Shown here: in pieces, positions 27,254 to 57,855 of the stretch
Position numbering within the stretch: the stretch's first letter is position 1
Layout: each line of letters opens with the position of its first letter
Assembly: GCA_937868765.1 (NCBI GenBank)
Contig: CALMNL010000004.1
Span: 124,001-188,000 of the forward strand
Direction of reading: 5' to 3'
Source: an uncultured Desulfatitalea sp.
GTDB taxonomy: Bacteria; Desulfobacterota; Desulfobacteria; Desulfobacterales; Desulfosarcinaceae
DNA: 64,000 nt
Program-made: the position numbers and the translations under genes
The notes under the pieces: model-generated
What the model saw: only the letters and a program-made list of their open reading frames with translations
What the model was told of the DNA's origin: nothing
The model's database searches: none

Positions 27254-28801
27254 CTATAACTGCGCCACGATCACATGGGGCCCCGGCTCGGCCAGGGCCC
27301 GGGCGAGCGCGGCCCGAAAGCCGTCCACGGTGCCGGCCGCGGTCGCCGGCACGCCCTGGCCCTCGGCCAGCTTGACCCAATCCAGGTCGGGGCGGCCCAG
27401 GTCCATGGTGTCCAGGATTCCGGCCGCCGGCGCGTTGAACCCCAGGCGCATCAGCTCGACCTGCAGGATCTGGTATTTGCGGTTGGCGAAGATCACGGTG
27501 ATCACATCCAGCCGCTCCCGGGCCTGGGTCCAGAGGGCCTGGAGGGTGTACATGGCCCCGCCATCGCCCTGCAGACAGAGCACTTTGCGCCCCGGGCAGG
27601 CCAGCGCCGCGCCGGTGGCCACCGGCACCCCCTGGCCGATGGCGCCGCCGGTGAGGCAGAGCCAGTCGTGGGGCGGCGCGCCCATGGTGCCGCGAAAGGC
27701 GAATTCGCCCGAAGTGCCCGACTCGTCCGAGACGATGGCCTCCTCGGGCAGCAGGGCACCGATCACGGCGCCGATGCTCTCGGTGGTCAAGGCTGCACCG
27801 GCAGGCAATTCCGGCCGCTGGGCCCGGACCGTTTCGGGCATTTCCTGTCCGGCGCCCAGGGCCTCGGCCAGGGCCGCCAGGACCCGGGCCCCATCCTGGC
27901 GCGGTCCGGCCAGGGTGTGGACCCTGCAGCCGGCGGCCAGCACGTCGAGCGAACAGTGGGGATAGGCAAAAAAGCTGGTGGGCACGGCGGCATTGATCAC
28001 GATCAATTGGGCGAATTCGGCCAGCCGCTTCCGGGCCCGCTCGGGGAAGTAGGGCAGCCGCCGCACCAGGGGCAACCCGGCCCCCCGGACGAACCGCGCC
28101 GCGAAGGTGTTGGAGAGGATCACCGCGCCGCTCTTTTTGGCGATGCGCGCCGCGGCCCGCAGCCCCGGTTCGAGCAAAGCCGGACCGCCCAGCAGCAGGC
28201 CGGTGGGCACTCCCGCCTGCAGCATCCGCACGGCTTCGGCCAGATCTGCCTCGGCCGGGGGCTCGAACACCGGTTCAGGGCCATCGACCGGGATGGGCGC
28301 GGCCTCGCTCCAGGCGCAGTCGGCCGGCACGACGAGCGAAGCCACCTGGCCGGGCCGGCCCAGGGCGGCCCGCAGGGCCGCGAGGCCCTGCTCGGGCAGA
28401 GCGGCGGCCGAGGCGGCTTCACCCACCCAGCCCGACACCGGCGCGGCCAGGGTGGCGATATCCGACGCCAGGGGCGGGTCGTTGGGACGATGGGCCGCCG
28501 GATGATCGCCGATGAGGTTGACGACGGGCGTACCGGCCCGGCGGGCGTTGTGCAGATTGGCCAGGGCGTTGGCCAGGCCCGGACCCAGGTGCAGCAAGGT
28601 GGCCGCCGGTCGGCCGGTCATGCGGCCGAATCCGTCGGCCGCGCCGGAGCAGACCCCTTCGAAGAGGCCCAGGACCGGCCGGATACGCGGCTCCCGGGCC
28701 AGGGCCGCCACCAGGTGGATCTCGGTGGTGCCCGGGTTGGTGAAACAATGGGTGATCCCGCCATCGGCCAACGCCTGCATCAATGCATCCGCACCGTTCA
28801 T
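27254..28801 (-). CDS. Thiamin diphosphate-dependent enzyme (acetolactate synthase/benzoylformate decarboxylase-like)
   Basis: A 515-residue enzyme of the three-domain IlvB/MdlC type. The N-terminal PYR domain carries the glutamate region LGLFEGVCSGAADGFGR, and the C-terminal PP domain has the ThDP motif starting GDGGAMYTLQAL and ending FANRKY. Members decarboxylate 2-oxo acids or form carboligation products; the substrate cannot be fixed. ATG 28801 has AAAGGATAT before it; the upstream start at 28822 is weaker. It is the second gene of the leftward operon. Confidence 0.88.
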   Translation of the reverse strand: MNGADALMQALADGGITHCFTNPGTTEIHLVAALAREPRIRPVLGLFEGVCSGAADGFGRMTGRPAATLLHLGPGLANALANLHNARRAGTPVVNLIGDHPAAHRPNDPPLASDIATLAAPVSGWVGEAASAAALPEQGLAALRAALGRPGQVASLVVPADCAWSEAAPIPVDGPEPVFEPPAEADLAEAVRMLQAGVPTGLLLGGPALLEPGLRAAARIAKKSGAVILSNTFAARFVRGAGLPLVRRLPYFPERARKRLAEFAQLIVINAAVPTSFFAYPHCSLDVLAAGCRVHTLAGPRQDGARVLAALAEALGAGQEMPETVRAQRPELPAGAALTTESIGAVIGALLPEEAIVSDESGTSGEFAFRGTMGAPPHDWLCLTGGAIGQGVPVATGAALACPGRKVLCLQGDGGAMYTLQALWTQARERLDVITVIFANRKYQILQVELMRLGFNAPAAGILDTMDLGRPDLDWVKLAEGQGVPATAAGTVDGFRAALARALAEPGPHVIVAQL

Positions 28802-43593: not shown

Positions 43594-44733
43594 ATGCTCA
43601 CCAAGGCAGAGATCGTTCACAAGGCAGTACAAATCGGGTTCGATGACATCGGTTTTACCGGCATCGAACCCTTTGCTTCCCAACTGGATTTGCTCAAGCA
43701 GCGGCAAGGTTCGTACGATTGGGTCGAGCGCCGGGGGCTGGCGCTCCGGCAAGGCACCGACCCCGGCACCGTCATGCCGGACGGCAAGACCCTCGTCGTA
43801 TTGATCTCGGTATACTATCGCCAGGGTTACCCCGATTATATGGAAGGCCATTTCGGCCGATGCTACCTTGATGACGATCGCATCACCAAAGACGGCCTGG
43901 CACTGCAGATCAAAGCCTTTCGCCGCTTCTTGGGCGATCACGGGGTCGCCTCCAAACTGGCGCCGAATCTGCCTCATCGCCTGGCCGCCGCCCGGGCGGG
44001 CCTGGGCACATTCGGGAAGAATTGTCTCTTCTTCTCCCGCAAAGCGGCCCGACAAAGCTCATTCGTGCTGCCCATCGCCATGGTAGTCGACCGCTGCTTC
44101 GCGCCGGACCCGCCCACTGTTGCAGTGGGATGCCCCGACTGGTGCCGCAATGCCTGCATTGCCGCCTGCCCCACGCGGGCGCTCAAAGGGCCGTGCCACA
44201 TCGAGCCGCGCCGATGCATCTCGTATTTGAGCTACTATGGCGAAGGCATGACACCCCTGGAACTGCGCGAACCCATGGGGCTGTATGTCTATGGGTGCGA
44301 CCGCTGCCAGAATGTGTGCCCGCGCAATGCGGCCCGGCTGGCCGAACCCTTGCCCATGAACGCCAAGGTAGCGGCCAAGGAACCGGATTTCCAGCTGGAG
44401 CGGCTGTTGCGCATGGATAAGGCCTATTTCGAAACGAAGATCTGGCCCCACATGTTCTACATGCCCGCCGATGACCTTTGGCGCTGGCAGATGAACGCGG
44501 CCAGGGCCATGGGCAACACCCGGGATCCGAAGTATATCGATGACCTGACAGCCGCCTGCAAGGAAAACGCCGACGAAAAGGTCCGCGCCATGGCCGCCTG
44601 GGCCCTCGGCCGCATCGGTGGCGGTCCGGCGCGCACGGCTTTGGAAGCGTTGAAGCTTGGTGCCGACGGGGTCTTCTTACAGGAAATTGAGTCGGCCTTG
44701 GATGGGTTCGCACTCAGTGGCGGATCCGTTTAG
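43594..44733 (+). CDS. QueG-like double [4Fe-4S] protein with HEAT tail
   Basis: A 379-residue protein resembling epoxyqueuosine reductase and reductive dehalogenase-related proteins. Two [4Fe-4S] motifs, CRNACIAACP and CDRCQNVCP, are followed by a HEAT-type tail (VRAMAAWALGRIGG). The first motif deviates from the CxxCxxCxxxCP of true QueG (here C-x3-C-x3-C-x3-CP). A role in queuosine synthesis is possible but the catabolic setting argues against a firm call. The start is uncertain between 43594 and 43510; the latter overlaps maoC. Confidence 0.75.
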   Translation: MLTKAEIVHKAVQIGFDDIGFTGIEPFASQLDLLKQRQGSYDWVERRGLALRQGTDPGTVMPDGKTLVVLISVYYRQGYPDYMEGHFGRCYLDDDRITKDGLALQIKAFRRFLGDHGVASKLAPNLPHRLAAARAGLGTFGKNCLFFSRKAARQSSFVLPIAMVVDRCFAPDPPTVAVGCPDWCRNACIAACPTRALKGPCHIEPRRCISYLSYYGEGMTPLELREPMGLYVYGCDRCQNVCPRNAARLAEPLPMNAKVAAKEPDFQLERLLRMDKAYFETKIWPHMFYMPADDLWRWQMNAARAMGNTRDPKYIDDLTAACKENADEKVRAMAAWALGRIGGGPARTALEALKLGADGVFLQEIESALDGFALSGGSV

Positions 44734-44886
44734 AGGAAACCTGATGTTCATCACACCGCGCCGGCATCGATCATTCTGCAACATCTTATGGCTGTTTCAG
44801 ATCGGTGGCTGATTCCCCTTGGGCGCTTGGCCGGTGGGAAATGCCTGTTTCCCCGAAACCGACTCCCTTTCAAAACCAGTCGTCTC

Positions 44887-45930
44887 TTATCGCGATGCTT
44901 TTGGCCCGCACAAATCCATTAGAATCCGGTGCGCCATTCCGAGGAAAGTGGCAATCCATGCCGCCATTGCCACGTAAATGAATACCTTGGGAATGGCGCC
45001 GATCACTGGCGCCGCAGTCACTTCGGCCAGGCGGTGGGTGCAGGCCGTGTACATCCCCAGCGGGAAGACGGCGCCCCAGAACAGCGGGCTGTATTGCAAA
45101 GGGAAGCGGCGGAGCCCGTGGCGCCATACGCCCAAGATCACCAGCATTGGAATCCACCAGGTCGCGGTGGCCCAGAAGAAGAAGGTGAACCCCTTCAGAA
45201 AGGGCATCAGTCCCGAGAAAAACGGAGACGACGCGGCATCGGCGATCAGTCCGGTGCCGCCCAGGGTGGTGATGGCCACGGCGCCCATGTTGATCCAATA
45301 GGGCGGGGTCAGGTCTTGGGGCGAGAAGTGGAAAAACAGATAGCGATAGAAAATAAGCGAGATGATCCAGATATAAAGCATGCCGCCGAACAACCAGGTC
45401 ATAAACGCCAAAAACAGCAGCGGTTCACGATATAATTGGGAAAAAGGCGCAATGGCCGTGCTCAGCACGGTGACCGCCTGGGTGGCCACAATCGCCAGCA
45501 GCCAACCGCCATTGATGCCTTCGGCGATGGTGGGTTTGGTCTCCTTGGTGATCAGCCCGGTGAACAGCCCGTAAATCAGGCAGAGCCACAAGGCGATGGT
45601 GATCCACCACAAAATCACCGCGAAGATAAGGCGCCCGGTGAGCAGGAGCACCTGGCTGCCCAACACCCCGGAAGCGGCCACGGCCGTGAAGAAGCCCATG
45701 CCCAGCATGTGGTCGCGAAAGTCGTGACGAAAACGGCGCGTGAAAAAGATGATCCGGGCGATATACAGGATCCAAAGGATGACATATGCGGCCAGATTGA
45801 ATTTGAAAAGCAGGGCGGCGATCAGGTCCAGTCCCTGGTAATGGGCGGCAATCGAGATGATCCCGGTGGACATCACCAGGGCGAAATAAGCCGGGCTGAG
45901 GTTTTCGAGTTTGTCGGCCAATATCGGCAT
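44887..45930 (-). CDS. TehA/SLAC1-family (TDT) anion transporter
   Basis: A 347-residue membrane protein with about ten hydrophobic segments. LSPAYFALVMSTGIISIA opens the TDT/TehA family signature. The family includes bacterial TehA, fungal malate carriers and plant SLAC1/SLAH anion channels, some of which pass nitrate. It lies 23 bases behind narI on the same strand, in the place where a NarK-type nitrate transporter would be expected. A role in nitrate or nitrite movement is an inference. Confidence 0.8.
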   Translation of the reverse strand: MPILADKLENLSPAYFALVMSTGIISIAAHYQGLDLIAALLFKFNLAAYVILWILYIARIIFFTRRFRHDFRDHMLGMGFFTAVAASGVLGSQVLLLTGRLIFAVILWWITIALWLCLIYGLFTGLITKETKPTIAEGINGGWLLAIVATQAVTVLSTAIAPFSQLYREPLLFLAFMTWLFGGMLYIWIISLIFYRYLFFHFSPQDLTPPYWINMGAVAITTLGGTGLIADAASSPFFSGLMPFLKGFTFFFWATATWWIPMLVILGVWRHGLRRFPLQYSPLFWGAVFPLGMYTACTHRLAEVTAAPVIGAIPKVFIYVAMAAWIATFLGMAHRILMDLCGPKASR

Positions 45931-45953
45931 GCGCCTTCCTTATTCCAGAATTT

Positions 45954-46628
45954 TCAGGATTGCCCCGCGAGGCGCCGAAACACGATCCGACGCCTGAGCA
46001 AGTAGAATACCGGCGCACTCCAGATGTGCACCAGGCGGCTGAAAGGCGAGAAGCCCAGCAGGGTCCAGGCCGCGATCACATGGATTTTGTAGCTGAGGGG
46101 CACCGCTTTCATCAGCATGGCATCGGGCGTGAAGGTGACGATCCCCCTGATCCAGGGAGCGACGGAGTACAGCACGTTGTAGTGCCCGAACACCACGTTG
46201 TAGATCCCGGCACCGACCACCAGGCAGATCGCGCCGATGGTGATGGTGTCGTTGAGCCGGCGAACGGCTTTCAAGCGGGGGTGCGTCAGCCGCCGCTGCA
46301 ACAGGAGCAGCGCGCCGATGAAAGCCGCAATGCCGACGGCCAAACCACTCCAGTAGGCGATCTCCATATGCACCTGGCTGTCGATGCCCAAACGGTCCAG
46401 GATGCGCTGCGGCATCAGCAGACCGGCGGCATGGCCGAAGAAGGTGCCCACGATGCCCCAGTGAAAAATAACCGATCCGGCAAAAAGCGATTTTTTTTCG
46501 AGAAATTCACTGGACCGGGCGTTCCACCCGTAGCGGTCGGTGACGTAGCGGTAGGCGTGGCCGACCAGAAATGTGGCGAGGCACAGATACGGAAAGACGG
46601 TGAAGATCAGCGTGTAAGCAGGGTCCAT
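45954..46628 (-). CDS. narI: Respiratory nitrate reductase gamma subunit NarI
   Basis: A 224-residue membrane cytochrome b with five hydrophobic segments. HWGIVGTFFGHAAGLL and SYKIHVIAAWTLLGFSPFSRLVHIWS provide the histidines for two hemes. NarI oxidises quinol and feeds electrons to NarH. Length and motifs are normal. It follows narJ after 18 bases. Confidence 0.92.
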   Translation of the reverse strand: MDPAYTLIFTVFPYLCLATFLVGHAYRYVTDRYGWNARSSEFLEKKSLFAGSVIFHWGIVGTFFGHAAGLLMPQRILDRLGIDSQVHMEIAYWSGLAVGIAAFIGALLLLQRRLTHPRLKAVRRLNDTITIGAICLVVGAGIYNVVFGHYNVLYSVAPWIRGIVTFTPDAMLMKAVPLSYKIHVIAAWTLLGFSPFSRLVHIWSAPVFYLLRRRIVFRRLAGQS

Positions 46629-46646
46629 GGACTTTCCTCCTTCGGG

Positions 46647-47207
46647 CTACTCATTTACTTCGAAGGGATGATCGCAGTGGTCATCCGCTGCGCACTGTTC
46701 TATGGCCATGGGGACGATGGGGCGCAGCAAACCGGCATAGATCGGCTCGATTTTCTCCAGACGTTCGACCAGCGGCGACAGGCCTTGCAGGCACCGCCAG
46801 ACCGGCGCGGTATGCGCCGGATGTGGACAGATCGAGAGAAATTCCAACATTAGAGGAAGGTAATCGGGCAACTCTCCCGAGATGCGCTCCCACCCGGCCT
46901 GCGCGTAAGTGTGCTGCAGGCGCGCCAGGGCCCCGGCCCGTTTTTCGTTGTCGCCGAACGCGTGGTAGGTCACGTTCAGAGTGGTGGCCGGATTCATGTC
47001 GAACACGGCCGTATATCTCTCCTGAACGTGGATCGGGGCATGGGCACGAAGATAGTGAAGATATGCCTGGACCGCGGATTGAATCTCCGCTGAAAGCAAA
47101 CGCTCGGCGAAGGAGCCAATCTCATCCAGGCGGCTGAACAGCTCTTCATCGGGATAGTGCAACACCACCGAGAGTACTTGTAGCGAATCGTTGATGCTCC
47201 TGGCCAT
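46647..47207 (-). CDS. narJ: Nitrate reductase assembly chaperone NarJ
   Basis: A 186-residue helical chaperone. LQVLSVVLHYPDEELFSRLDEI and ERYTAVFDMNPATTLNVTYH are NarJ-type signatures, with DHC near the acidic tail. NarJ binds apo-NarG, helping molybdenum cofactor insertion and membrane docking. ATG 47207 with AAAGG before it is preferred to the longer start at 47237 that overlaps narH. Confidence 0.9.
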   Translation of the reverse strand: MARSINDSLQVLSVVLHYPDEELFSRLDEIGSFAERLLSAEIQSAVQAYLHYLRAHAPIHVQERYTAVFDMNPATTLNVTYHAFGDNEKRAGALARLQHTYAQAGWERISGELPDYLPLMLEFLSICPHPAHTAPVWRCLQGLSPLVERLEKIEPIYAGLLRPIVPMAIEQCAADDHCDHPFEVNE

Positions 47208-47233
47208 CTTACAGCCTTTCTGCGCGTCCGCGG

Positions 47234-48658
47234 TCAAACGGCGTCGCCAAAGCCGCAGCGGCCCTGGCGGGTGTAGTTCTCTGCTTCTCCCACGACCGGC
47301 TTGGTGGGCAGTACGAAACGGTCCTCCAGGCGCGCCAACGCCAGCAGTCGGTACATCTTCTCGACATCGCCCGCGTCGAGTTCAACCGCATCGAGCAAGC
47401 CGGTGTCGGTCCGATTTTCCAGGCGTCGGGTGCGCATGTAGCCGCGAAGGGCCGCAAGGCGCTGGAGGGCCCTGCGCACCGGCGCCTCGTCGCCGGCGGT
47501 CAGCAGGTTGGCCAGGTAGGTGATGGGAATGCGCAGGCGGTCGATCAGATCCGCTTCCCGGCCGGGCGCCACCTGACTGCTGATCGGACTCAACGGCGGC
47601 ACATACCACACCATGGGCAGGGTCCGAAATTCAGGGTGCAGCGGCAGCGCCAGGCGCCACTGTTTGATCAACGCGTAAACCGGTGAGCGTTTTGCGGCGG
47701 CCATAATGTTCGCAGAGATGCCCTGGTCATCGGCGTGGTGCTGGACGTCGGGGTCGTGGGGGTCGAGCAGGATCTCCAGATGGGCTGGGTAAACAGCCTC
47801 GTCCGACGGTGCCGAGGCCGCCCCGGCGATGCGGTCCGCATCGTAAAGCAGCACGCCCACGTAACGGATGCGGCCGACGCAGCTGTGGGCGCACAGGGTG
47901 GGCAGGCCGGCTTCGATGCGGGGATAGCAGAAGATGCACTTTTCCGCCCGCCCGGTCTTCCAGTTGAAGTAGACTTTCTTGTACGGACAGCCCGACACGC
48001 AGTAACGCCACCCGCGGCAGCGCTCCTGGTCCACCAGCACGATGCCGTCCTCTTCCCGCTTGTACAGGGCGCCGGACGGACAGGAGGCCACGCAGGCCGG
48101 ATTGAGGCAGTGTTCGCACAGGCGCGGCAGCCAGAACATGAACACATTGTGGAACTGCAGATAGGTCGTCCACTCCAGATTCTTGAAATTGGGGTCTCCA
48201 CCGCCCGTTTCGCCCAGGCCGGCGAGATCATCCTCCCAGTTGGGGCCCCACTTGAGGACCATCGGTTCGCCGGTCAAGCGGGAATGCGGACGCACCGACG
48301 GCTGGTGTTGGCGCTTGGGGCTTTCGATGAGGCGGGCATAGTCGTAATTCCACGGTTCGTAGTAGTCGTCGATGACGGGCAGATCGGGGTTGTGAAAAAT
48401 GTTGAGGCCTTTGTGCAGTCGGCCGCCGGCTTTGAGTTCCAGGCGGTCCCGGCGCAGTTGCCAGCCTCCCCGGTAGTGCGCCTGGTTCTCCCATTTTCGG
48501 GGGTAGCCGATACCGGGTTTGCATTCCACGTTGTTGAACCACATGTATTCGGCGCCGTCGCGGTTGGTCCACACATTCTTGCACGGAATGCTGCAGGTAT
48601 GGCAGCCGATGCACTTGTCCAGATTCAGCACCATGGCATATTGGGCTTTAATCTTCAT
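47234..48658 (-). CDS. narH: Respiratory nitrate reductase beta subunit NarH
   Basis: A 474-residue iron-sulfur protein. C16, C19, C22 and C26 (CIGCHTCSIPC) start the first cluster; CEHCLNPACVASCP and CRGWRYCVSGCP contain the others, and the tryptophan in the latter replaces a cysteine so that this site holds [3Fe-4S] as in NarH. It carries electrons from NarI to NarG. It overlaps narG by 11 bases. It is about 40 residues shorter than the Escherichia coli protein. Confidence 0.95.
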   Translation of the reverse strand: MKIKAQYAMVLNLDKCIGCHTCSIPCKNVWTNRDGAEYMWFNNVECKPGIGYPRKWENQAHYRGGWQLRRDRLELKAGGRLHKGLNIFHNPDLPVIDDYYEPWNYDYARLIESPKRQHQPSVRPHSRLTGEPMVLKWGPNWEDDLAGLGETGGGDPNFKNLEWTTYLQFHNVFMFWLPRLCEHCLNPACVASCPSGALYKREEDGIVLVDQERCRGWRYCVSGCPYKKVYFNWKTGRAEKCIFCYPRIEAGLPTLCAHSCVGRIRYVGVLLYDADRIAGAASAPSDEAVYPAHLEILLDPHDPDVQHHADDQGISANIMAAAKRSPVYALIKQWRLALPLHPEFRTLPMVWYVPPLSPISSQVAPGREADLIDRLRIPITYLANLLTAGDEAPVRRALQRLAALRGYMRTRRLENRTDTGLLDAVELDAGDVEKMYRLLALARLEDRFVLPTKPVVGEAENYTRQGRCGFGDAV

Positions 48659-51600
48659 ACCAGTCCACCTTTCCGGCTTTGCGCACGATGATCGTCTCGT
48701 CGCGCTGGGCGCCGATGGGGCCGTAATAGTTGAATCCGTAGCTCAACTGCGCATACCCGCCGATCATATGGGTCGGCTTGACCATGATGCGGGTGACGCT
48801 GTTGTGGGTCCCGCCGCGTTTGCCGGACAGCGTCGATCCCGGCGTGTTGATCAGGCGTTCCTGGGCATGGTACATGAACGCCTTGCCCGGCGGAATGCGC
48901 GGGCTCACCACGGCCTTGGCCATCACCACGCCATTGGCGTTGAAGCACTCCAGCCAGTCATTGTCCCGCACGGCGATCTTGCGGGCGTCTTCGTCATTGA
49001 TCCAGATCGCTTCGCCGCCGCGGAACAGGGTCAGCATGGTCAGGGTGTCCGAATAGGTGCTGTGAATCGACCATTTGGAGTGGGGCGTCAGATAATTGAG
49101 GACGATCTCCCGTTCCGGTTCACGGGCGACCCCGGCCGGTTCGGTGTCTTTTTCGTCCAGGGGCGGCCTGTAGACCGGCAGGTGTTCGCCGAAGTCACAC
49201 ATCCAACGGTGATCCTGGTAGAACTGGGCCCGGCCCGTGAGAGTCCGGAACGGCACCTTCTCCTCGACGTTGATGACAAAGGGCGAATAGCGGCGCTCCT
49301 CGGATTCGATGCCGCTCCAGATGGGCGAGGTGATGATTTTGCGCGGCTGTACCGTCAGGTCGTCGAACCGGAAACGTTCGCCCTGCCGGCGCAGGCTCAG
49401 GTGCTGGAGTGACAGCCCGGTTCGTTTTTCCAGGCCCGCCCAGGCCTTGACCGCCGTCTCGCCGTTGGTTTCCGGTGCCAGCATCAGAATGGTTTCGGCG
49501 GCCTGTTTGGCCGTTTCCATGGCCGGACGCCCCTGGCCGGCGCCTTCCTCCATCACGCTGCCCAGTTCAGCCTTCAGCGCTTCGATTTCTTCCCCGGCCT
49601 TCCACATGACGCCCTTGGACCCGACGCCCACGGAACCGGCCAAGGGTCCCAGGGCGGTCATCATGCGATAGACCTCCGGGTAATTGCGGGTCACCACCGC
49701 CATGTTCGGCATGGTCCTGCCCGGCTGCGGCTCGCACTCGCCGCGGCGCCAGTCCCGGACCTCGGGCTGGGCGATTTCGCCCGGGCTGTCGTGCATCAGC
49801 GGCGTGGCTACCAGTTCCTTGACCAACCCCAGGTGGTCGGCCGCCAATTGCGAAAATTTTTCGGCGATGGTTTTAAACTGCTCCCAGTTGGTGCGCGTCT
49901 CCCAGGGGGGATCGATGGCCGGATTGAAGGGGTGGATGAACGGGTGCATGTCGGTGGTGTTCAAATCGTGCATCTCGTACCATCCGGCGGCCGGCAGGAC
50001 GATATCGGCGTACATGGCGCTGGTGGACATGCGCAGTTCCAGGGTGACCAGCAGGTCCAGCTTGTTTTCCGGCGCCGGATCGCGCCAGGTGATCTCTTCG
50101 GGGCGCAGGTGGCTGTCGGTGTTCAGCACCGCGTGGTCGGCGCCCAGCAGATGCTTGAGAAAGTATTCGTGCCCCTTGCCGCTGGCGCCCAGCAGGTTGG
50201 CCCGCCACAGGAACAGCACCCGGGGGAAATTCACCGGGTTGTCCGGATCTTCCACGGCAAAGCGCAATTCCCCCTTTTTCAGTTTTTCGACGGCGTAGGC
50301 CACGATCTGTTCGTCCGAGGAAGCGCCGTGGGCCATGGCCTCACGCACCAGTTCGATGGGGTTCCGGTCGAACTGCGGATAGGAGGGCAGCCATCCCAGG
50401 CGGGCGGCGATCACGTTGTAATCGGCCATGTGCGGCAACGGCCGCTGGTCCGAGAGCGGTGAAAGCACGCTGTCCGGCCGCAGGTGGTCGTAGCGCCACT
50501 GATCGGTGGCGAAGTAGTAAAACGAGGTGCCGTTTTGCTGCCGCGGCGGCCTTTGCCAATCCAGTCCGAACGCCACCTGGGACCAGGCCGCCTGGGGCCG
50601 CACTTTTTCCTGCCCCACGTAGTGCGCCCAGCCGCCGCCGTTGACCCCCTGGCAGCCGCACAGGGTGGTCAAGTTGATGATGGTCCGGTAGATCATATCG
50701 CTGTGATACCAGTGGTTGGTGCCGGCCCCCAGAAAGATCATGGACTTGCCGCGGGTCTTTTCGGCATTGTCGGCGAACTCGCGCGCCACGCGGATGGCAT
50801 CGGCCGCCGGCACGCCCGTGATGGCCTCCTGCCAGGCGGGGGTGTAGGGTTTGAGATCGGAGTAATCCTTCGGGTAGTCCGGGCAGTCGTCGGCCAGGGT
50901 CGCCGGTGCTTGCTTGGGCAGCAGGCCCAGTTGGGCGGCCATCAGGTCGAAAACCGTCGTCACCCGCAATTCGCCCGCAGCGGTTGCAATCTTTTTATAA
51001 GGCACCCGGCCTCGCCGGATGCCGCTGCCGGCCGCCGCGAACACCGGGAAGGAGACCGCCTGCCAGCCGTCGTTTCGGTCGGCGAAACTCAGCAGCGGAT
51101 CGATGGGCCGGTCGCCGTCCTCCATTTTCAGATTCCAGCGCCCTTCTTCGTTCCACCGGAACCCGATGCTGCCGTTGGGCACGCGAAAATCACCGCCGGC
51201 CGCATCGACCACCACGGTTTTCCACTGCGCATTGTTGGTTCCCCCCCCCAGGTCGGCGGCCCGCAGGAACCGGCCGGGCGTATGGTGGCCGCCGTGATCT
51301 TCGAGCACCACTGCAAACGGCAGATCGGTATACTGCTTGGCGTACTCCCTGAAATAAGGCACCTGGCGGTCAATGTAGAACTCCTTGACGATCACATGGG
51401 TCATGGCCATGGCCAGGGCCCCATCGGTTCCGGCTTTGGCCGGCAACCAGGTGTCGGCGAACTTGACATACTCGGCGTAATCGGGCGCCACCGCGGCCAC
51501 CCGGGCGCCCCGATAGCGCGCCTCGGTGTAGAAATGGGCATCGGGGGTGCGGGTCATGGGCAGGTTGGTGCCCCAGACGATAAAATAGCTCGATTCATAC

Positions 51601-52358
51601 CAGTCGGCGCTCTCCGGCACGTCGGTCTGCTCTCCCCAGATTTGCGGCGAGGCAGGGGGCAGATCGCAATACCAGTCGTAGAAACTGATCATGGCCGCGC
51701 CGATCAGGGACAAGAAACGCGCACCCGAGGCGTAGCACACCATCGACATGGCCGGGATCGGTGAAAAGCCGAAGATGCGGTCCGGCCCGTATTGCTTGAT
51801 GGTATGGATCAACCCCGCGGCGATCAGGGTGGCGGCCTGGTCCCAGGTGAATCTCACGAATCCGCCCTTGCCGCGCTCCCGGTGGAACCGGCGGCGTTTT
51901 TCCTCGTCGGCGACGATGCTCCCCCAGGCGGAGACCGGATCGCCGTTCTGCTCCAGCGCCTCGCGCCACATCTGCATCAAACTGGATCGGATCAGCGGGT
52001 ATTTCAAGCGGACCGGGCTGTAGGTGTACCAGGAATAAGTCGCCCCGCGCGGGCAGCCCCGCGGTTCATGATTGGGGAACCCTGCGCCGCACGCCGGATA
52101 GTCCGTGGCCTGGGTTTCCCATACCAGGATGCCGTCCTTCACGTAGACTTCCCAGGAGCAGGAACCTGTGCAGTTGACCCCGTGGGTGGAACGCACCTTC
52201 TTGTCGTACTGCCAGCGGCGGCGATACAGATCCTCCCATTCTCTTTGGCCGCAGCGGATCTGCGCCCAATCGTCGGCCGTTTTTTCCTCCAGGCAGCCGT
52301 GCGAGGGGCCTTTGGGTCGGAAAAACCTTAGCGCGCGAAACAATGAAGATCGGCTCAT
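48648..52358 (-). CDS. narG: Respiratory nitrate reductase alpha subunit NarG
   Basis: A 1236-residue molybdoenzyme that reduces nitrate to nitrite at the cytoplasmic side of the membrane. The cluster site is H59, C63 and C67 (HGVNCTGSCSW), with the histidine ligand typical of NarG. GEQTDVPESADWYESSYF is the region of the molybdenum aspartate ligand. The N-terminus (RSSLFRALRFFRPKGP) is a relic twin-arginine-like tail as in cytoplasmic NarG. Closest homologues are of membrane NarGHI. It follows a PP2C gene and is followed by narH. Confidence 0.97.
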   Translation of the reverse strand: MSRSSLFRALRFFRPKGPSHGCLEEKTADDWAQIRCGQREWEDLYRRRWQYDKKVRSTHGVNCTGSCSWEVYVKDGILVWETQATDYPACGAGFPNHEPRGCPRGATYSWYTYSPVRLKYPLIRSSLMQMWREALEQNGDPVSAWGSIVADEEKRRRFHRERGKGGFVRFTWDQAATLIAAGLIHTIKQYGPDRIFGFSPIPAMSMVCYASGARFLSLIGAAMISFYDWYCDLPPASPQIWGEQTDVPESADWYESSYFIVWGTNLPMTRTPDAHFYTEARYRGARVAAVAPDYAEYVKFADTWLPAKAGTDGALAMAMTHVIVKEFYIDRQVPYFREYAKQYTDLPFAVVLEDHGGHHTPGRFLRAADLGGGTNNAQWKTVVVDAAGGDFRVPNGSIGFRWNEEGRWNLKMEDGDRPIDPLLSFADRNDGWQAVSFPVFAAAGSGIRRGRVPYKKIATAAGELRVTTVFDLMAAQLGLLPKQAPATLADDCPDYPKDYSDLKPYTPAWQEAITGVPAADAIRVAREFADNAEKTRGKSMIFLGAGTNHWYHSDMIYRTIINLTTLCGCQGVNGGGWAHYVGQEKVRPQAAWSQVAFGLDWQRPPRQQNGTSFYYFATDQWRYDHLRPDSVLSPLSDQRPLPHMADYNVIAARLGWLPSYPQFDRNPIELVREAMAHGASSDEQIVAYAVEKLKKGELRFAVEDPDNPVNFPRVLFLWRANLLGASGKGHEYFLKHLLGADHAVLNTDSHLRPEEITWRDPAPENKLDLLVTLELRMSTSAMYADIVLPAAGWYEMHDLNTTDMHPFIHPFNPAIDPPWETRTNWEQFKTIAEKFSQLAADHLGLVKELVATPLMHDSPGEIAQPEVRDWRRGECEPQPGRTMPNMAVVTRNYPEVYRMMTALGPLAGSVGVGSKGVMWKAGEEIEALKAELGSVMEEGAGQGRPAMETAKQAAETILMLAPETNGETAVKAWAGLEKRTGLSLQHLSLRRQGERFRFDDLTVQPRKIITSPIWSGIESEERRYSPFVINVEEKVPFRTLTGRAQFYQDHRWMCDFGEHLPVYRPPLDEKDTEPAGVAREPEREIVLNYLTPHSKWSIHSTYSDTLTMLTLFRGGEAIWINDEDARKIAVRDNDWLECFNANGVVMAKAVVSPRIPPGKAFMYHAQERLINTPGSTLSGKRGGTHNSVTRIMVKPTHMIGGYAQLSYGFNYYGPIGAQRDETIIVRKAGKVDWYED

Positions 52359-52392
52359 GGAAAACCTCCAACGCAGGTAAAGGTTCCAGGAA

Positions 52393-52429
52393 GGCCTTAC
52401 AGCTCTCGGTAAGACCAGCTCGCAGCTGG
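52393..52429. repeat. Two inverted repeats upstream of narG
   Basis: GGCCTTAC (52393-52400) and GTAAGACC (52409-52416) pair with one mismatch. CCAGCT (52415-52420) and AGCTGG (52424-52429) pair perfectly around CGC. They lie 35-71 bases before the narG start in the 151-base gap to the PP2C gene. They may be a regulator site or an RNA hairpin that separates expression of the signalling genes from the reductase genes. Confidence 0.4.
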
Positions 52430-52509
52430 CACAACGGCAGGCGAGTCATCGCATGCGCATGTCAGGGCGGTCTGCAGCCGGGATTGAATGGGGCGGGGCC
52501 GGCGTGAAT

Positions 52510-53370
52510 TCATAGACAGGTTACCTGCCTGCCCCTTGATCTGCAACATATTTCGGTCCATGCATTTGACCCAGATCGATCCATCCCCTTTTCCAATGCA
52601 TCCTTTCCCGACTCACTTGCGCTGCCCCTGCGCGCGCAGACGACCAACGTAATGTCGTCCTCGGCGCCGTTTCGAATGGCCGCTGCCACCAGCGCGGCGG
52701 CCGCCTCCTGCGGCGTCGTTCGCGCGCTGAAAACGGCTTGCAGCTCGGCCGAAGTCAGGGCGCGGTGCAACCCATCGGAGCAAACAAGGAATTGGTCATC
52801 CAACCGGATTTGCATCGCGCCGGTTTCGGGCTCGCAATGGCCGCAGCCGATATATTGATCCATGACGTGACGCGAATAGTGCCCCGGCATCTGCTCCGCC
52901 GAAATCTCGCCCTCTTGGAGCAGAAAGCGCCCCAGGGTCTGATCCTCGGTGACCTGGGTCAACATGCTGTCGCGCCACAGGTAGAGACGGCTGTCGCCCA
53001 CGTGAAGCCAGTGCAGCCGATGGCTGCTCAGCAGCGCGCAGACCAGGGTGCTGCCCTTGCCCTGAAACTCCCCGTCGCGAAAATTGTGCCCATGGACCGC
53101 ACGGTCGAGCTCCATTACCCGCTGCTGCAATTCCGAGAACGCTTCTGCATGAGCAATGGCGTCCAGCGCGTCAATGACGGTCTGCGCGGCCCATGCGCCC
53201 CCGCCGCTCAATCCATCGGCCACGGCGACCAAAACACAGGCCTCCGGCAGGGCCTTGATCAAAGAGCGATCTTCATTGGTCGGACGGCAAGGGCCTTGAT
53301 GGGAAAGGCCGAACGCCGAGAAGGCGCCATGGAATAGGGCCGTGGGGTATGGGGGCCGAGCGCGGTTCAC
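52510..53370 (-). CDS. PP2C-family Ser/Thr protein phosphatase
   Basis: A 286-residue protein with all PP2C motifs: TNEDRS (D34), AVADGLSGGG (D52), HVGDSRLYLW, CSDGLHRAL and GAEDDITLVV, which bind two metal ions. It removes phosphate from serine or threonine. It starts at GTG overlapping the kinase stop by four bases (GTGA), so kinase and phosphatase are made together and probably act on the same proteins. The last 30 residues are non-conserved. Confidence 0.92.
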   Translation of the reverse strand: MNRARPPYPTALFHGAFSAFGLSHQGPCRPTNEDRSLIKALPEACVLVAVADGLSGGGAWAAQTVIDALDAIAHAEAFSELQQRVMELDRAVHGHNFRDGEFQGKGSTLVCALLSSHRLHWLHVGDSRLYLWRDSMLTQVTEDQTLGRFLLQEGEISAEQMPGHYSRHVMDQYIGCGHCEPETGAMQIRLDDQFLVCSDGLHRALTSAELQAVFSARTTPQEAAAALVAAAIRNGAEDDITLVVCARRGSASESGKDALEKGMDRSGSNAWTEICCRSRGRQVTCL

Positions 53371-55034
53371 ATTTCACCTGCCCGCATATCAATGTTTTCC
53401 GTCAGCTCAACCTCCACGCCCATGGCGCCGGCCTTGGCCTTGAAGGTTTGGATCAGCGCATTGAGCGCCTTGCCATGTTCATCCTTAAAAGCGAGACACA
53501 GGGCGGCGCGCCGCTTGTCGGCGGCCCTGGCCAGGCCCAAGTCGGTATTGCCCAACAGGGAGCGCAGGGCCGCCCGGGCCTGGTGCATGGTCTGGTAACG
53601 TTGCGCCGGATCGCGACGCCCGCAGCGCTGCACAAACGCACGCAGCAACGGAGGGATGTCGGCCTTGACCAGGCCCGGATCGGCGACATCCCGGCGCAGG
53701 TGCAGATCGATCAGCGTCCTGGCTTCCTTTGCTTCGAAGGGGCGCCGGCCGCTGAGCATCTCGTAGGCCGTGACGCCCAGGGCATAGATATCGGCGCGGG
53801 CATCCACCGGATCGCCGCGGATCTGCTCCGGAGAGACGTAATGGGCGGTTCCGGGATTCGAGAAATCTTCGGTGCCGGCCGCACAGGCCAACCCGAAATC
53901 GAGCACTTTGACCTGATCGTTGGGCTGAACGAGGATGTTGGCCGGGTTGATGTCGCGATGGATGATACCGCGCTCATGGGCGTAGGCCAGCGCATCGCAG
54001 AGCTGGTAGAGATAGCGGGCCGCCGGATAGGGCGCAATGGCGCGCAGGTGGGCGATCATTTGCTTGAGGGAATCGCCCCGCAGATATTCCATGATGATGA
54101 ACAAGGTGCGATGACGCTCTTCGAAATCATACACCTTGACGATATGAGGATGGGACAGCCCGGCGATGATCTTGGCTTCATCGTAGAAGCTTTGAAAGAA
54201 ATCGGGCTGCAGGGCCATGTGGTGGCGCATCATTTTGATGGTCACCGGCATGTTCAGGTCCTTGTGCACCCCCTTGTAGACGATGCTGAAAGCCCCGCGG
54301 CCGATGATGTCGGTGGCGATGTACTTGCCGATGGTGCGGTATGCCGTGGGCCGGCGGCTGTCCAGACGGTCGGCCACCAGTTCGGTGATGAACGCCAGCA
54401 GGTCGGGGTCATTATCGGCGAAATCGTCGAACTGCTCCCGGGTCATTTCCCAAAGCAGCATGTCGGTTTCGGCTTCCACATGGGCGCGGCGCGGCTCGCC
54501 GGTCAAAATTCCCAGACCGCCGACGATGTCTCCTTCCCCATAGTGGTCCACCGGGTGCAATTGGCCCTCTTTTTCCACGATGACCAGGCAGGAACCATGC
54601 TGGATGATATAGGCCTTGTCCTCCACGGCCCCCTGCATCACGAAACGCTCTCCGGCCTTGACATGGCGGCAGGTCATCTCGTCGAAAAAGGGGCTGCGGT
54701 GCTCCCGGTTGACGAATTGCAGGAATTTGATCCTGGAGCCGGCGTGTCGTTCCTGTTCCTGAACCATTTGGTAGAAGGCGCAGTTGCGGCAGGAGGGGCG
54801 TTTTTCGGCAAAAGAGCCTTGCAGGCAGCCGCCGCAATAGGTTCCGGCTACGGCCCAGCACACCCTGCCGGCGTTTTGACCGGAGTTGATCCCATCGAAG
54901 GAGGTGTCGGTCGCGGCCGGACACGCACCGAATTCGGCGACTTTTTTACCCCCCTGTTCGAGTCCGCAGTCCATTACCTGCCAGCAATTGAGCCGGCCGG
55001 ATGGGCATTTGCCGTTGGACGAACGCTGCGTCAT
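53367..55034 (-). CDS. Two-CW / cyclic-nucleotide-binding / Ser/Thr protein kinase
   Basis: A 555-residue protein with three parts. Residues 10-95 hold ten or more cysteines in the two-CW pattern (CWQVMDC at 17-23; CWAVAGTYCGG at 59-69; CRNC at 82-85), a probable metal or redox sensor. Residues about 115-230 are a cNMP-binding domain (IIQHGSCLVIVEKEG). Residues about 238-495 are a kinase: GRGAFS 245-250, K267, HRD 359-361, DFG 379-381. In HRDINPAN the usual Lys after HRD is Asn363. An extra C-terminal segment of about 55 residues follows. It heads a set with PP2C and narGHJI. Confidence 0.93.
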   Translation of the reverse strand: MTQRSSNGKCPSGRLNCWQVMDCGLEQGGKKVAEFGACPAATDTSFDGINSGQNAGRVCWAVAGTYCGGCLQGSFAEKRPSCRNCAFYQMVQEQERHAGSRIKFLQFVNREHRSPFFDEMTCRHVKAGERFVMQGAVEDKAYIIQHGSCLVIVEKEGQLHPVDHYGEGDIVGGLGILTGEPRRAHVEAETDMLLWEMTREQFDDFADNDPDLLAFITELVADRLDSRRPTAYRTIGKYIATDIIGRGAFSIVYKGVHKDLNMPVTIKMMRHHMALQPDFFQSFYDEAKIIAGLSHPHIVKVYDFEERHRTLFIIMEYLRGDSLKQMIAHLRAIAPYPAARYLYQLCDALAYAHERGIIHRDINPANILVQPNDQVKVLDFGLACAAGTEDFSNPGTAHYVSPEQIRGDPVDARADIYALGVTAYEMLSGRRPFEAKEARTLIDLHLRRDVADPGLVKADIPPLLRAFVQRCGRRDPAQRYQTMHQARAALRSLLGNTDLGLARAADKRRAALCLAFKDEHGKALNALIQTFKAKAGAMGVEVELTENIDMRAGEM

Positions 55035-55399
55035 GCACCCAACCTCACGATGGGGTCCGTTGCGCGGACCGGGTGTTCAGTGCCTTGCCCTATGATGGCT
55101 TGGTCTCCACCGTAGAACAAAGAAAAAGCCGTCTCCTTGACTTAAATCAAATATAAAATCATTCGATCGTAACCGGGCCCCTCAAGCATTACGCCCCCTC
55201 CTCGGCCGATCCTCGAACGCGACACCCGGCGCAATGACGCCCTGCTCATCGCTCATGGCGGAGCCGCAGATGCAATCACATGGGAGACAGCGTCATTTGT
55301 CCAAGGCAACTGCCGGGAGGGGCACCCTAAAATACTTACAAAATTTACGCCAAAAGGGTTATAGTTTAGAAAAAATCGAACTTTGAACGGAAGCAACCC
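55035..55399. other. Divergent control region, kinase-nar genes and histidine kinase
   Basis: 365 bases without a gene. It holds an FNR-like box (55137-55150) and AT-rich DNA around 55320-55380 where TATAGT (55362-55367) may be a -10 for the rightward histidine kinase gene, although no good -35 was found. No sigma54 GG-N10-GC pair was found in either direction. Confidence 0.5.
55137..55150. promoter_or_regulatory. FNR/CRP-type palindrome upstream of the kinase-nar genes
   Basis: TTGACTTAAATCAA matches the FNR consensus TTGAT-N4-ATCAA at nine of ten defined positions. It is centred 109 bases before the kinase start codon, at a distance that could place it about 40 bases before a leftward transcription start. 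FNR-type proteins switch on nitrate respiration when oxygen is absent, which fits the genes downstream. Confidence 0.6.
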
Positions 55400-56521
55400 A
55401 TGCAAGAAGAAGAATTGAAGCGGGAACGGGCGCGACTGATCGAACGCAACAAGGAATTGACCTGTCTGTATGAAATCGCCAAGATCATGGCCGACAAGCA
55501 GAAGAACTTTCCCCAGATGCTGCAGGCGATTCTGGTCCTTCTGCCGCCGGCCTTCCAGCATCCGGACAGGACCGGCGCCCGCATCGCGGTCGGTGATCTG
55601 ACCTTCGCAACGGAAGGTTTCGAAATCTCACCGCACATGATCCGCGAGCCCTTGATGATCCAGGGCCGCGCACAGGGGGTAATGGAGGTGGTTTGCTGCC
55701 GGGCCGACGGCGAGCGCGACCCCTTCCTGCCCGAAGAACGCGCCCTGCTTCGCACCATTGCCAGCCAGAGCGCCCTGATGATCGAAAAAAAGCTCGCCAG
55801 CGACAAGCAGGCCGAACTGGAGGGCCAACTGCGCCATGCCGACCGCCTGGCCAAAATCGGTCAACTCACGGCGGGCATGGCGCACGAATTGAACGAGCCT
55901 TTATCAAGCATTTTGGGGTTTGCCCAATTGGCCGCCAAAAAAATCGATTCTCCCGAGGTCGCGGCCCGCTACCTCGATCGGATCGTGCATTCGTGCCTGC
56001 ATGCACGCGAAATTATCCGCAAAATGATGCTCTTCAGCAGCCCGATGCCCCAGCGCAAGCGTCGGGTCGATCTGAATCGGCTCCTCGCCGAGGGAATGCT
56101 CTTCATCGAACCGCGGTTTCCCCAATCCGCCATCCGCTTCGAAAGCAGCTTCGATCCGACGCTGCCGACGATCCTTGCGGATAGCTCGCAAATCACCCAG
56201 GTGCTGGTGAACCTTGTGATCAACGCCATCCACGCCATGCCCGATGGCGGGAGCCTCGTGCTGAAAACCGTCGCCATGCAGGGTCGAGCGCGCATGATCG
56301 TTCAGGACACAGGGATCGGAATGGACGCGCAGACCCGGGAGCAGATCTTTCTTCCATTTTTCACGACAAAGGATGTGGATCAGGGCACGGGGCTGGGACT
56401 GTCGGTGGTGCACGGCATCGTGACGGCCCATGGCGGTACGATCGAAGTGCAGAGCCAAATTGGGCGGGGCGCCACGTTTATCATCGACTTTCCGGCGGAT
56501 GAACAGGAGGAGGCGCCATGA
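55400..56521 (+). CDS. Soluble GAF sensor histidine kinase
   Basis: A 373-residue kinase without membrane segments. A short helical start is followed by a GAF-like domain (about 25-130), HisKA with H162 in GMAHELNEPLSS, and HATPase with NLVINAIHAMPDGG, DTGIGM and GTGLGLSVVHGI. It should sense a cytoplasmic signal and phosphorylate the regulator encoded next, which overlaps it by four bases. Confidence 0.93.
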   Translation: MQEEELKRERARLIERNKELTCLYEIAKIMADKQKNFPQMLQAILVLLPPAFQHPDRTGARIAVGDLTFATEGFEISPHMIREPLMIQGRAQGVMEVVCCRADGERDPFLPEERALLRTIASQSALMIEKKLASDKQAELEGQLRHADRLAKIGQLTAGMAHELNEPLSSILGFAQLAAKKIDSPEVAARYLDRIVHSCLHAREIIRKMMLFSSPMPQRKRRVDLNRLLAEGMLFIEPRFPQSAIRFESSFDPTLPTILADSSQITQVLVNLVINAIHAMPDGGSLVLKTVAMQGRARMIVQDTGIGMDAQTREQIFLPFFTTKDVDQGTGLGLSVVHGIVTAHGGTIEVQSQIGRGATFIIDFPADEQEEAP

Positions 56522-57855
56522 ACGCGGCATCCGAAGGGAAAGCTGTCCCTTTCAGGATCCTGGTGGTCGACGACGATGCCGATTCCCGGGAGGTGATCCA
56601 GGCGCACCTCGAGGATGAGGGCTACCGGGTGCGCACCTGTCCAGGTGTCCCCCAGGCCTTGCAGGCCCTGGCTCAGGACACTTTCGATGTCATCATCACA
56701 GACCTGCGGATGCCAAGGGCCAACGGCCTGGAGCTCATTCGGCATGTGCGCCAGAACCAGCAGGACGTCGAGATCATGATGGTCACCGGCTATCCCTCCA
56801 TCGAAGGGGCCGTCGAAGCGGTAAAGTCCGGCGCCGAGCACTATCTGGCCAAACCCTTCACCGATGCGGAACTGCTCACGGCCGTGCGCGCCGTGATCGA
56901 AAAATTGGTCCGCAAGCGCATGGTGCGCAGTGAAAACGTCGCCGGCCGCACCTATGGCATCATCGGCGAATCGGCCGCCATGCAAAAGGTCTTCAAATTG
57001 ATCGCCAAAGCCTGCCAGAGCAACGCCAACGTGCACATCAGCGGAGAAAGCGGCACCGGTAAGGAGTTGGTGGCGCGCGCCGTTCATTACGCAGGGCCTC
57101 GGCGTTCGGCGCCGTTCGTGTCCGTCAACTGCACCGCGATCCCCGAAAGCCTGATCGAAAGCGAGCTGTTCGGCCATGCCAAAGGTGCTTTCACCGGTGC
57201 CGGCGAGGCACGTACCGGCTTTTTCCAGATTGCCCACGGCGGCACCCTGTTTCTCGATGAAATCGGGGATGCCAGCCTTTCCATGCAGGGCAAACTGTTG
57301 CGCGCCATCCAGGACAAAACCATCTACAAGGTGGGCTCCAGCCGCCCCATCCAAGTGGACACGCGCCTCATCTGCGCCACCAACAAAGACCTGTTGCAGC
57401 TTATCAAAAAAGGCCTTTTCCGCGAGGATCTTTACTACCGAATCAATGTGATCGATATCACCGTCCCCTCGCTGCGTGAACGGGGGGCGGACATTTTTCT
57501 GCTCGTCAGTCACTTTCACGCCAAATTCGCCAAGGACCTCGGACGCAAGGTGCCCGCCTTCAGCGACGAAGTGCTGCGACAGATGATGGCCTATCACTGG
57601 CCCGGCAACGTGCGCGAACTTGAAAACCTGGTTCAAAAGCTGGTCCTGGTGGCCGAAGGCGACACCATCATGCCCACCGACCTGCCATCCGCCATGCGGT
57701 TCAGCGCGGCGGGCAGCCGAAGGCTCGATCGCAGCCTGGCCGAGATGGAATCCGAGTACGTTCACGACGTGTTGGCCAGTGTGGACGGCAACAAGACGCG
57801 GGCGGCCGCCATCCTCAAAATCGATCGCAAGACCCTGCGCGAAAAACTCAAATAG
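56518..57855 (+). CDS. NtrC-family sigma54-dependent response regulator
   Basis: A 445-residue regulator: a receiver domain with D62 (DVIITDLRMP), an AAA+ domain with GESGTGKE and the sigma54 contact motif GAFTGA, and a Fis-type helix-turn-helix at the very end (KTRAAAILKIDRKTLREKLK). It activates promoters with sigma54 after phosphorylation by the adjacent kinase. Targets are unknown; the divergent nar set is a possibility but no sigma54 site was found there. Confidence 0.95.
   Translation: MNAASEGKAVPFRILVVDDDADSREVIQAHLEDEGYRVRTCPGVPQALQALAQDTFDVIITDLRMPRANGLELIRHVRQNQQDVEIMMVTGYPSIEGAVEAVKSGAEHYLAKPFTDAELLTAVRAVIEKLVRKRMVRSENVAGRTYGIIGESAAMQKVFKLIAKACQSNANVHISGESGTGKELVARAVHYAGPRRSAPFVSVNCTAIPESLIESELFGHAKGAFTGAGEARTGFFQIAHGGTLFLDEIGDASLSMQGKLLRAIQDKTIYKVGSSRPIQVDTRLICATNKDLLQLIKKGLFREDLYYRINVIDITVPSLRERGADIFLLVSHFHAKFAKDLGRKVPAFSDEVLRQMMAYHWPGNVRELENLVQKLVLVAEGDTIMPTDLPSAMRFSAAGSRRLDRSLAEMESEYVHDVLASVDGNKTRAAAILKIDRKTLREKLK

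Follow-up and report, generated by a model that had tools for sequence, protein, structure and literature searches.

A kinase-phosphatase pair heading the nitrate reductase genes of an uncultured Desulfatitalea sp.: a candidate phosphorylation switch of the HcpR-type nitrogen-oxide regulon in Desulfobacterota

Gene content of the locus

The window, a 64,000-nucleotide stretch of DNA from an uncultured Desulfatitalea sp. (genome G000; G and L labels denote genomes and loci, respectively), carries on its minus strand a Ser/Thr protein kinase and a PP2C-type phosphatase, followed by a nitrate reductase (narGHJI) and a SLAC1/TehA-type anion channel. An earlier sequence-only reading of this DNA had described these genes as packed on one strand, which was confirmed at the following coordinates. 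The kinase (53367..55034, 555 amino acids (aa)) was recognized from its open reading frame, Pfam and NCBIfam matches and catalytic residues as a combination of a two-CW domain, a domain resembling those that bind cyclic nucleotide monophosphates (cNMP) and a Hanks-type kinase domain, while the phosphatase (52510..53370, 286 aa, GTG start) was identified by PF00481, PF13672 and its motifs. These are followed by narG (48648..52358; TIGR01580, 1846.7 bits against a cut-off of 1084), narH (47234..48658; TIGR01660), narJ (46647..47237; TIGR00684), narI (45954..46628; TIGR00351) and the channel gene (44887..45930; PF03595, 3e-50). All four Nar subunits score above the NCBIfam equivalog cut-offs, as a respiratory nitrate reductase should. 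The kinase and phosphatase genes overlap by 4 base pairs (bp), narG and narH by 11 bp and narH and narJ by 4 bp, while 151 bp lie between the phosphatase gene and narG, 18 bp between narJ and narI and 23 bp between narI and the channel gene; gaps within the unit span −11 to +151 bp, and the reading frames are far from chance. The FNR-like box that had been reported before the kinase is also real: it is an HcpR-type palindrome, TTGACTTAAATCAA, located at 55137..55150, 102 bp 5' of the kinase ATG.

Domain architecture of the kinase and the phosphatase

On the minus strand, the two-CW domain covers kinase residues 15–93 (54756..54992; NF045718, 103.6 bits, cut-off 35), the cNMP-like domain, similar to that of the protein kinase A regulatory subunit (PKA-R), residues 123–208 (54411..54668; PF00027) and the kinase domain residues 241–483 (53586..54314; PF00069). 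The catalytic Lys, HRD and DFG of Hanks-type Ser/Thr kinases are all found in the window protein, and among 27 aligned kinases K267, E286, H359-R360-D361 and F380-G381 were kept in all 27, N366 and D379 in 26. In the same alignment the two-CW cysteines 17, 23, 38, 59, 67, 82 and 85 were invariant, together with both CW tryptophans. The NF045718 model had matches in 133 of the 395 phylum genomes, 117 of which exceeded the cut-off, and a comparison by sequence with solved structures gave no relative of the two-CW domain, the only matches being antibody chains with E-values of 0.21 and above.

The sequence-only reading had taken the cNMP domain as a signal input. A domain of this kind is present and can be aligned to the PKA regulatory subunit, but alignment column 173, where cAMP receptors have their ribose-binding Glu, is occupied by Gly in 12 kinases, Met in eight, Ile in four, Val in two and Glu in a single one. 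As the window kinase has Gly at this position (Gly173) and 26 of the 27 proteins lack the Glu, cAMP is an unlikely ligand and cAMP sensing was not favoured. Arg182 was kept in 23 of 27, and Cys149, His164 and His185 were invariant. The family is thus similar to PKA/PKG in having a cNMP-like domain fused to a kinase, and differs from them in the missing ribose-binding Glu and in not being an established cAMP sensor. Related cNMP-like kinases without a two-CW domain were found in L098–L102 and L034–L036; the one in L101 has a PilZ-like N-terminus (below cut-off) and is adjoined by a PP2C and a hemerythrin gene. A role in defence was considered and rejected, because the PADLOC matches of the kinase (25 of 37 listed) cover the kinase domain, for which any such kinase would give matches; for the PP2C a single model gave a match, of 29.5 bits.

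The phosphatase scores above the PF00481 and PF13672 cut-offs and below that of NF033484, and it possesses the conserved aspartates of PP2C enzymes within the motifs NEDR, ADG, GDSR, CSDG and DDIT, which serve as metal sites. No two-CW domain was detected in the window PP2C; nevertheless, 9 of 25 PP2C genes listed from the kinase loci (L067, L080, L082, L085, L089, L091, L093, L096 and L106) have two CW motifs N-terminal to the phosphatase, and the L085 protein, the one tested, reached 99.8 bits to NF045718. In L094 (4651–7053) a single 800-aa open frame spans kinase and PP2C, possibly a natural fusion.

Among the closest known counterparts are the PknB/Stp pairs, in which a Hanks-type kinase and an Stp1-type PP2C likewise form an adjacent antagonistic pair with their catalytic motifs in place. 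In contrast to PknB, the window kinase has no PASTA match (NF033483 gave 276.9 bits against a cut-off of 450, over the kinase part only) and carries two-CW and cNMP-like domains, the former of which may also occur on the phosphatase of this family. We tentatively suggest, as an idea that is more probably wrong than right, that two-CW is a nitrosative sensor whose seven invariant cysteines perhaps bind a metal, and that it sits on the kinase and, in those nine PP2C genes, also on the phosphatase opposing it. In combination with HcpR, such a sensor would give Desulfobacterota a two-layer response to nitric oxide (NO) and nitrite, in which HcpR makes the proteins and the kinase and PP2C tune them by phosphorylation.

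The upstream palindrome and the HcpR regulon

The HcpR motif of delta-proteobacteria outside Desulfovibrio is given as wyTTGACnnnnGTCAArw by Rodionov et al. 2005 (available text of PMC1274295), where the regulon includes hcp, as well as nar and nrfHA in Geobacter and Desulfuromonas, with hemerythrin-like genes as frequent members. The window box, TTGAC-N4-ATCAA, is a close variant with ATCAA instead of GTCAA in the second half-site. Two matches to TTGAYNNNNRTCAA were found in the window compared with a mean of 0.16 after shuffling (1 of 100 shuffles had at least two); the match other than the kinase box is TTGATCACGATCAA at 27993–28006, a palindrome of the same general form.

A TTGAY-N4-RTCAA palindrome was present in 10 of 12 hcpR-like loci and lay between hcpR and hcp in all seven that had hcp in view. 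The window genome has this arrangement too, with an hcpR-like gene (G000:C4:442734–443396, minus strand) divergent from hcp (443666–445276, plus strand) and a box at 443552 between them. The form TTGAYTNARRTCAA, picked after the sites had been seen, occurred at five places in this genome and at none in the reversed control: in the kinase promoter, in the hcpR-hcp gap, and upstream of a pair of 4Fe-4S and CCG-domain (HdrCB-like) genes, of a GATase gene and of a DUF3786 gene. The last of these is L143:1549–2433 on C4 of the window genome, downstream of one HcpR-type site, and an HdrCB-like pair was also seen near the kinase in L078, L081 and L094.

A strict box within 400 bp upstream was found for 12 of 38 kinase units and 10 of 226 control units, after leaving out units at contig edges, control units shorter than 150 aa and control units with genes of the nitrogen-oxide set described below; the 38 kinase units include relatives without two-CW and differ from the 38 loci of the neighbour count. 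Four of the ten control matches (WIN, L074, L090, L103) share the box of a kinase unit divergently, while boxes close to where the kinase or hemerythrin gene begins in L071, L072 and L096 fell outside the unit rule. Boxes also head the GATase-nar unit in G002, G005, G007 and G009 and narG in G003. There was no second box in the window's 151-bp PP2C-narG gap, and therefore nar may here depend on the kinase promoter. The box would tie the kinase-PP2C-nar unit to an anaerobic or nitrogen-oxide regulator, for which HcpR is the candidate.

Neighbours of the kinase in related genomes

Scanning the genome collection with two patterns returned 42 kinase loci; both patterns had been derived from members of the window's order, and relatives further away may have escaped the scan. 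Thirty-one loci came from Desulfo- taxa or, once, Syntrophobacteraceae, seven were assigned only to Deltaproteobacteria, three only to Proteobacteria and one to the symbiont 'Delta 1'. In an even draw of 395 genomes from the phylum, the kinase family was found in 14 (E ≤ 1e-100), six of which match from two-CW on.

Neighbours were counted within 5 kb of 38 two-CW loci. One record per genome was used for L065/L028 and L033/L103, the loci of G056 (L031/L076) and G005 (L029/L069) were outside the set, the relatives without two-CW (L034–L036, L098–L102) were excluded, and L128–L131 (G100, G135, G444, G095) were not added. The most frequent neighbour was PP2C (23 loci), followed by hemerythrin (13), HPP (11), a CBS-domain protein (8), a NapH-like Fe-S protein (6), quinol-type NO reductase (4) and an HdrB-like protein (3), with narG, Hcp, GATase, a CRP-family regulator and an octaheme-like cytochrome at two loci each; as many contigs are short, these counts are lower bounds. 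Of the 38 loci, 21 had one or more genes of a set of seven (hemerythrin, HPP, NO reductase, Hcp, narG, octaheme cytochrome and NrfH). Hemerythrin was found 13 times within 3 kb and never at 5–10 kb, and HPP 11 times compared with twice. When a wider set (hemerythrin, HPP, CBS, NO reductase, Hcp, NarG, GATase, NapH-like, octaheme cytochrome) was used, its genes lay within 1.5 kb of 22 of 37 two-CW kinase loci and of none of 18 other kinase loci from the same genomes; the Fisher p of 1.4e-5 for this contrast is flattering, because the set was chosen after the neighbours had been seen, and weight is placed on the contrast rather than on p.

Nitrite transporters of plants and cyanobacteria are among the HPP proteins, according to the available text of PMC4137279, in keeping with a common theme of nitrite flux. 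HPP genes lie at most 30 kb from nar in five of the seven nar genomes that have HPP (G002, G007, G009, G028, G039) and on other contigs in G005. As a separate observation, L125 and L127 (in G002 and G007) form a nitrogen-oxide island with nar, SLAC1, a DHOD-like protein, hemerythrin, NO reductase, c12 (a conserved protein matched by neither Pfam nor NCBIfam), CBS, HPP and hcp; in several genomes, c12 and the DHOD-like gene are again found close to CBS-HPP.

These neighbours bear on two other explanations. The first is that an ordinary Ser/Thr kinase-PP2C pair with targets unrelated to nitrogen oxides merely rides in the nar operon. Kinase-PP2C adjacency is indeed common (PP2C lies within 1.5 kb of 9 of the 18 other kinase loci; the corresponding 37 of 37 for the two-CW family is inflated, because the query's two-CW domain matches the kinase, and was not used), the catalytic domains are unremarkable, and 17 of the 38 loci have no neighbour of the nitrogen-oxide set within 5 kb. 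An ordinary pair would, however, leave unexplained why genes for hemerythrin, HPP, CBS and NO reductase recur beside the kinase, and the HcpR-type box before it, in several branches of the family, and we regard this explanation as unlikely. The second is an oxygen or redox switch under FNR-type control, in which hemerythrin and the two-CW cysteines sense O2 or the redox state and nitrogen oxides are secondary. Hemerythrins bind O2, some sites (L094, L095) are TTGAT-N4-ATCAA, which is the FNR form, and redox genes (NapH-like, NrfD, HdrBC-like) are among the neighbours; against it stand the neighbouring NO reductase, HPP, Hcp and nar genes and the occurrence of TTGAC-N4-GTCAA, the published HcpR form, at 17 of 30 listed sites, and an oxygen switch is considered quite improbable.

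Linkage of the pair to nar

Twelve of the 60 genomes searched, the window genome included, carry narG (E ≤ 1e-100), and the region 5' of narG was viewed in all 12, over approximately 2.2 kb or more each. The intact kinase-PP2C pair stands upstream of nar in two of them, the window genome and G002, where the order is kinase-PP2C-GATase-narGHJI-SLAC1, followed within about 27 kb by hemerythrin, NO reductase, CBS, HPP and hcp. In G007 (L056), which is syntenic with G002, the pair has been cut to a scar consisting of the kinase start and the PP2C end, with the box, GATase and nar kept (read by eye), while in G039 and G005 kinase and nar are both present, far apart or on different contigs. G006 (L037) and G010 (L038), of the same genus and without a narG match, have decayed kinase-PP2C copies among retained surrounding genes. 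A search for short G007-like scars upstream of narG in nine other loci gave no kinase match and one PP2C at E 0.66; it also missed the known G007 scar, and its outcome therefore shows nothing. In the tree, the two nar-linked kinases do not form a sister pair: the window kinase groups with that of G008 (100/99), a 64% complete genome in which no narG was found, and the G002 kinase with those of L071/L072, loci that have HPP and NO reductase nearby. Given the two of 12 linkages, the G007 scar and the tree placement, nar can do without the kinase-PP2C pair, and common descent does not bind the two together.

A regulator dedicated to nar, whose kinase and PP2C directly control the nitrate reductase or the transporter and whose other contexts represent re-use, would account for the single strand, the short gaps and the box-free 151-bp gap in the window, and for the similar order in G002, where a GATase gene intervenes. 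It is hard to reconcile with an intact pair in only two of 12 nar genomes, the unlinked genes in G039 and G005, the retention of nar without the pair in G007, the position of the two nar-linked kinases as non-sisters in the tree, and the situation in G002, where nar has its own box behind the kinase-PP2C pair. We therefore consider such a regulator improbable, and nar-specific regulation as the main role is weakened by the comparative data (with narG within 5 kb at 2 of 38 kinase loci). The sequence-only reading had linked the pair to nitrate respiration and proposed to look for the same gene order in other Desulfobacterota. The linkage itself holds and is seen once more in the genus, in G002; the pair as a dedicated controller of nar largely fails by that standard, the linkage being poorly conserved, and a broader claim on nitrogen oxides takes its place.

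The SLAC1-type channel

The channel reached 171.7 bits with PF03595 (cut-off 27.9) and 82.9 bits with TIGR00816 (tdt; cut-off 237), and a search by sequence against solved structures gave no match at 0.001. Ten nar loci could be compared at their ends, G005 and G020 being left out as their contigs end too soon: six end in SLAC1 (G000, G001, G002, G007, G009, G039; these include the window, L030, L055, L056, L057 and L059), four end in a NarK-like gene of the major facilitator superfamily (G003, G017, G028, G051; L054, L058, L061, L064), and none has both in view. The best NarK-family match in SLAC1-type genomes was 80.5 bits compared with 177–190 bits for the NarK-like genes, which are themselves below the family cut-off of 311.7. 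The SLAC1 channel seems to stand in for NarK, because the two ends alternate across nar loci and NarK-family matches are weak in SLAC1-type genomes, and it would then probably transport nitrate or nitrite. In plants the SLAC1 anion channel is controlled by the OST1 kinase and the ABI1 PP2C; here a SLAC1-family channel is encoded together with a kinase and a PP2C, a parallel at the level of the genes.

A proposed phosphorylation switch in the HcpR regulon

Our preferred interpretation, to which we assign a probability of roughly 0.55, is that kinase and PP2C act against each other as a phosphorylation switch within the HcpR-type NO/nitrite stress regulon of Desulfobacterota, with the switch heading nar in the window. 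HcpR, or a close CRP/FNR relative, would turn on the kinase-PP2C-narGHJI-SLAC1 unit, probably as one transcript, when nitrogen oxides are present under anoxia. A second signal would be read by the kinase through its Cys-rich two-CW and non-canonical cNMP-like domains, and the kinase would set the phosphorylation state of proteins that handle nitrogen oxides, with PP2C reversing it; candidate substrates are the SLAC1 channel, the CBS/HPP proteins and the Nar subunits. In the window genome the genes of the pair are packed with nar; in its relatives they adjoin those for hemerythrin, HPP and CBS proteins or for NO reductase.

Several observations weigh against this interpretation. Of the 38 two-CW loci, 17 have none of the seven-gene set within 5 kb (many of their contigs being short), and neither do six further two-CW loci (G005, G056, G095, G100, G135, G444) in stretches of 3.7–19.9 kb. 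A strict box is missing from 26 of 38 kinase units, and the full TTGAC-N4-GTCAA form accounts for only 7 of 15 kinase-unit sites, the window's own site not among them. In the window genome HPP lies 1.2 Mb from both nar and the kinase, and the pair has been deleted or has decayed in G006, G007 and G010 and is therefore dispensable. Hemerythrin may point to oxygen, and the neighbour set was chosen post hoc.

Sulfate reducers are inhibited by nitrite and NO, compounds that also shape the boundary between nitrate and sulfate respiration. As far as the available texts of PMC1274295 and PMC5701242 go, the described control of the nitrite/NO response is transcriptional, by HcpR and by NrfS-NrfR. The HcpR regulon of delta-proteobacteria in these sources resembles the present one in its type of palindrome and in its hcp, nar and hemerythrin-like targets; the main text of PMC1274295 is without the word 'kinase', while the available text of PMC5701242 has it six times (for a histidine kinase, for an unspecified 'Kinase', Ddes_1324, changed by NO, and for a laboratory enzyme), has 'phosphatase' nowhere and contains no kinase-PP2C pair. 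A search of the open-access literature returned no description of such a kinase-PP2C switch, nor the term 'two-CW domain'. Kinase-PP2C pairs themselves are ordinary; what appears to be new is that such a pair belongs to the HcpR regulon and that two-CW domains occur on kinase and phosphatase alike. If the interpretation is correct, a Ser/Thr kinase-PP2C switch adds a post-translational layer to the HcpR regulon, gives the two-CW domain a first role and offers concrete substrates for testing.

Other features of the locus

A scan of positions 44700–55500 gave 2 promoter-like sites (3.2 expected) and 13 terminator-like sites (9.8 expected), and was not used as evidence. A histidine kinase and an NtrC-type response regulator (55400..57855, plus strand) are encoded divergently from the Ser/Thr kinase and share its promoter region; loci L035 (where it comes with a GAF domain), L093 and L104 have a regulator similar to this NtrC-type one close to the kinase.

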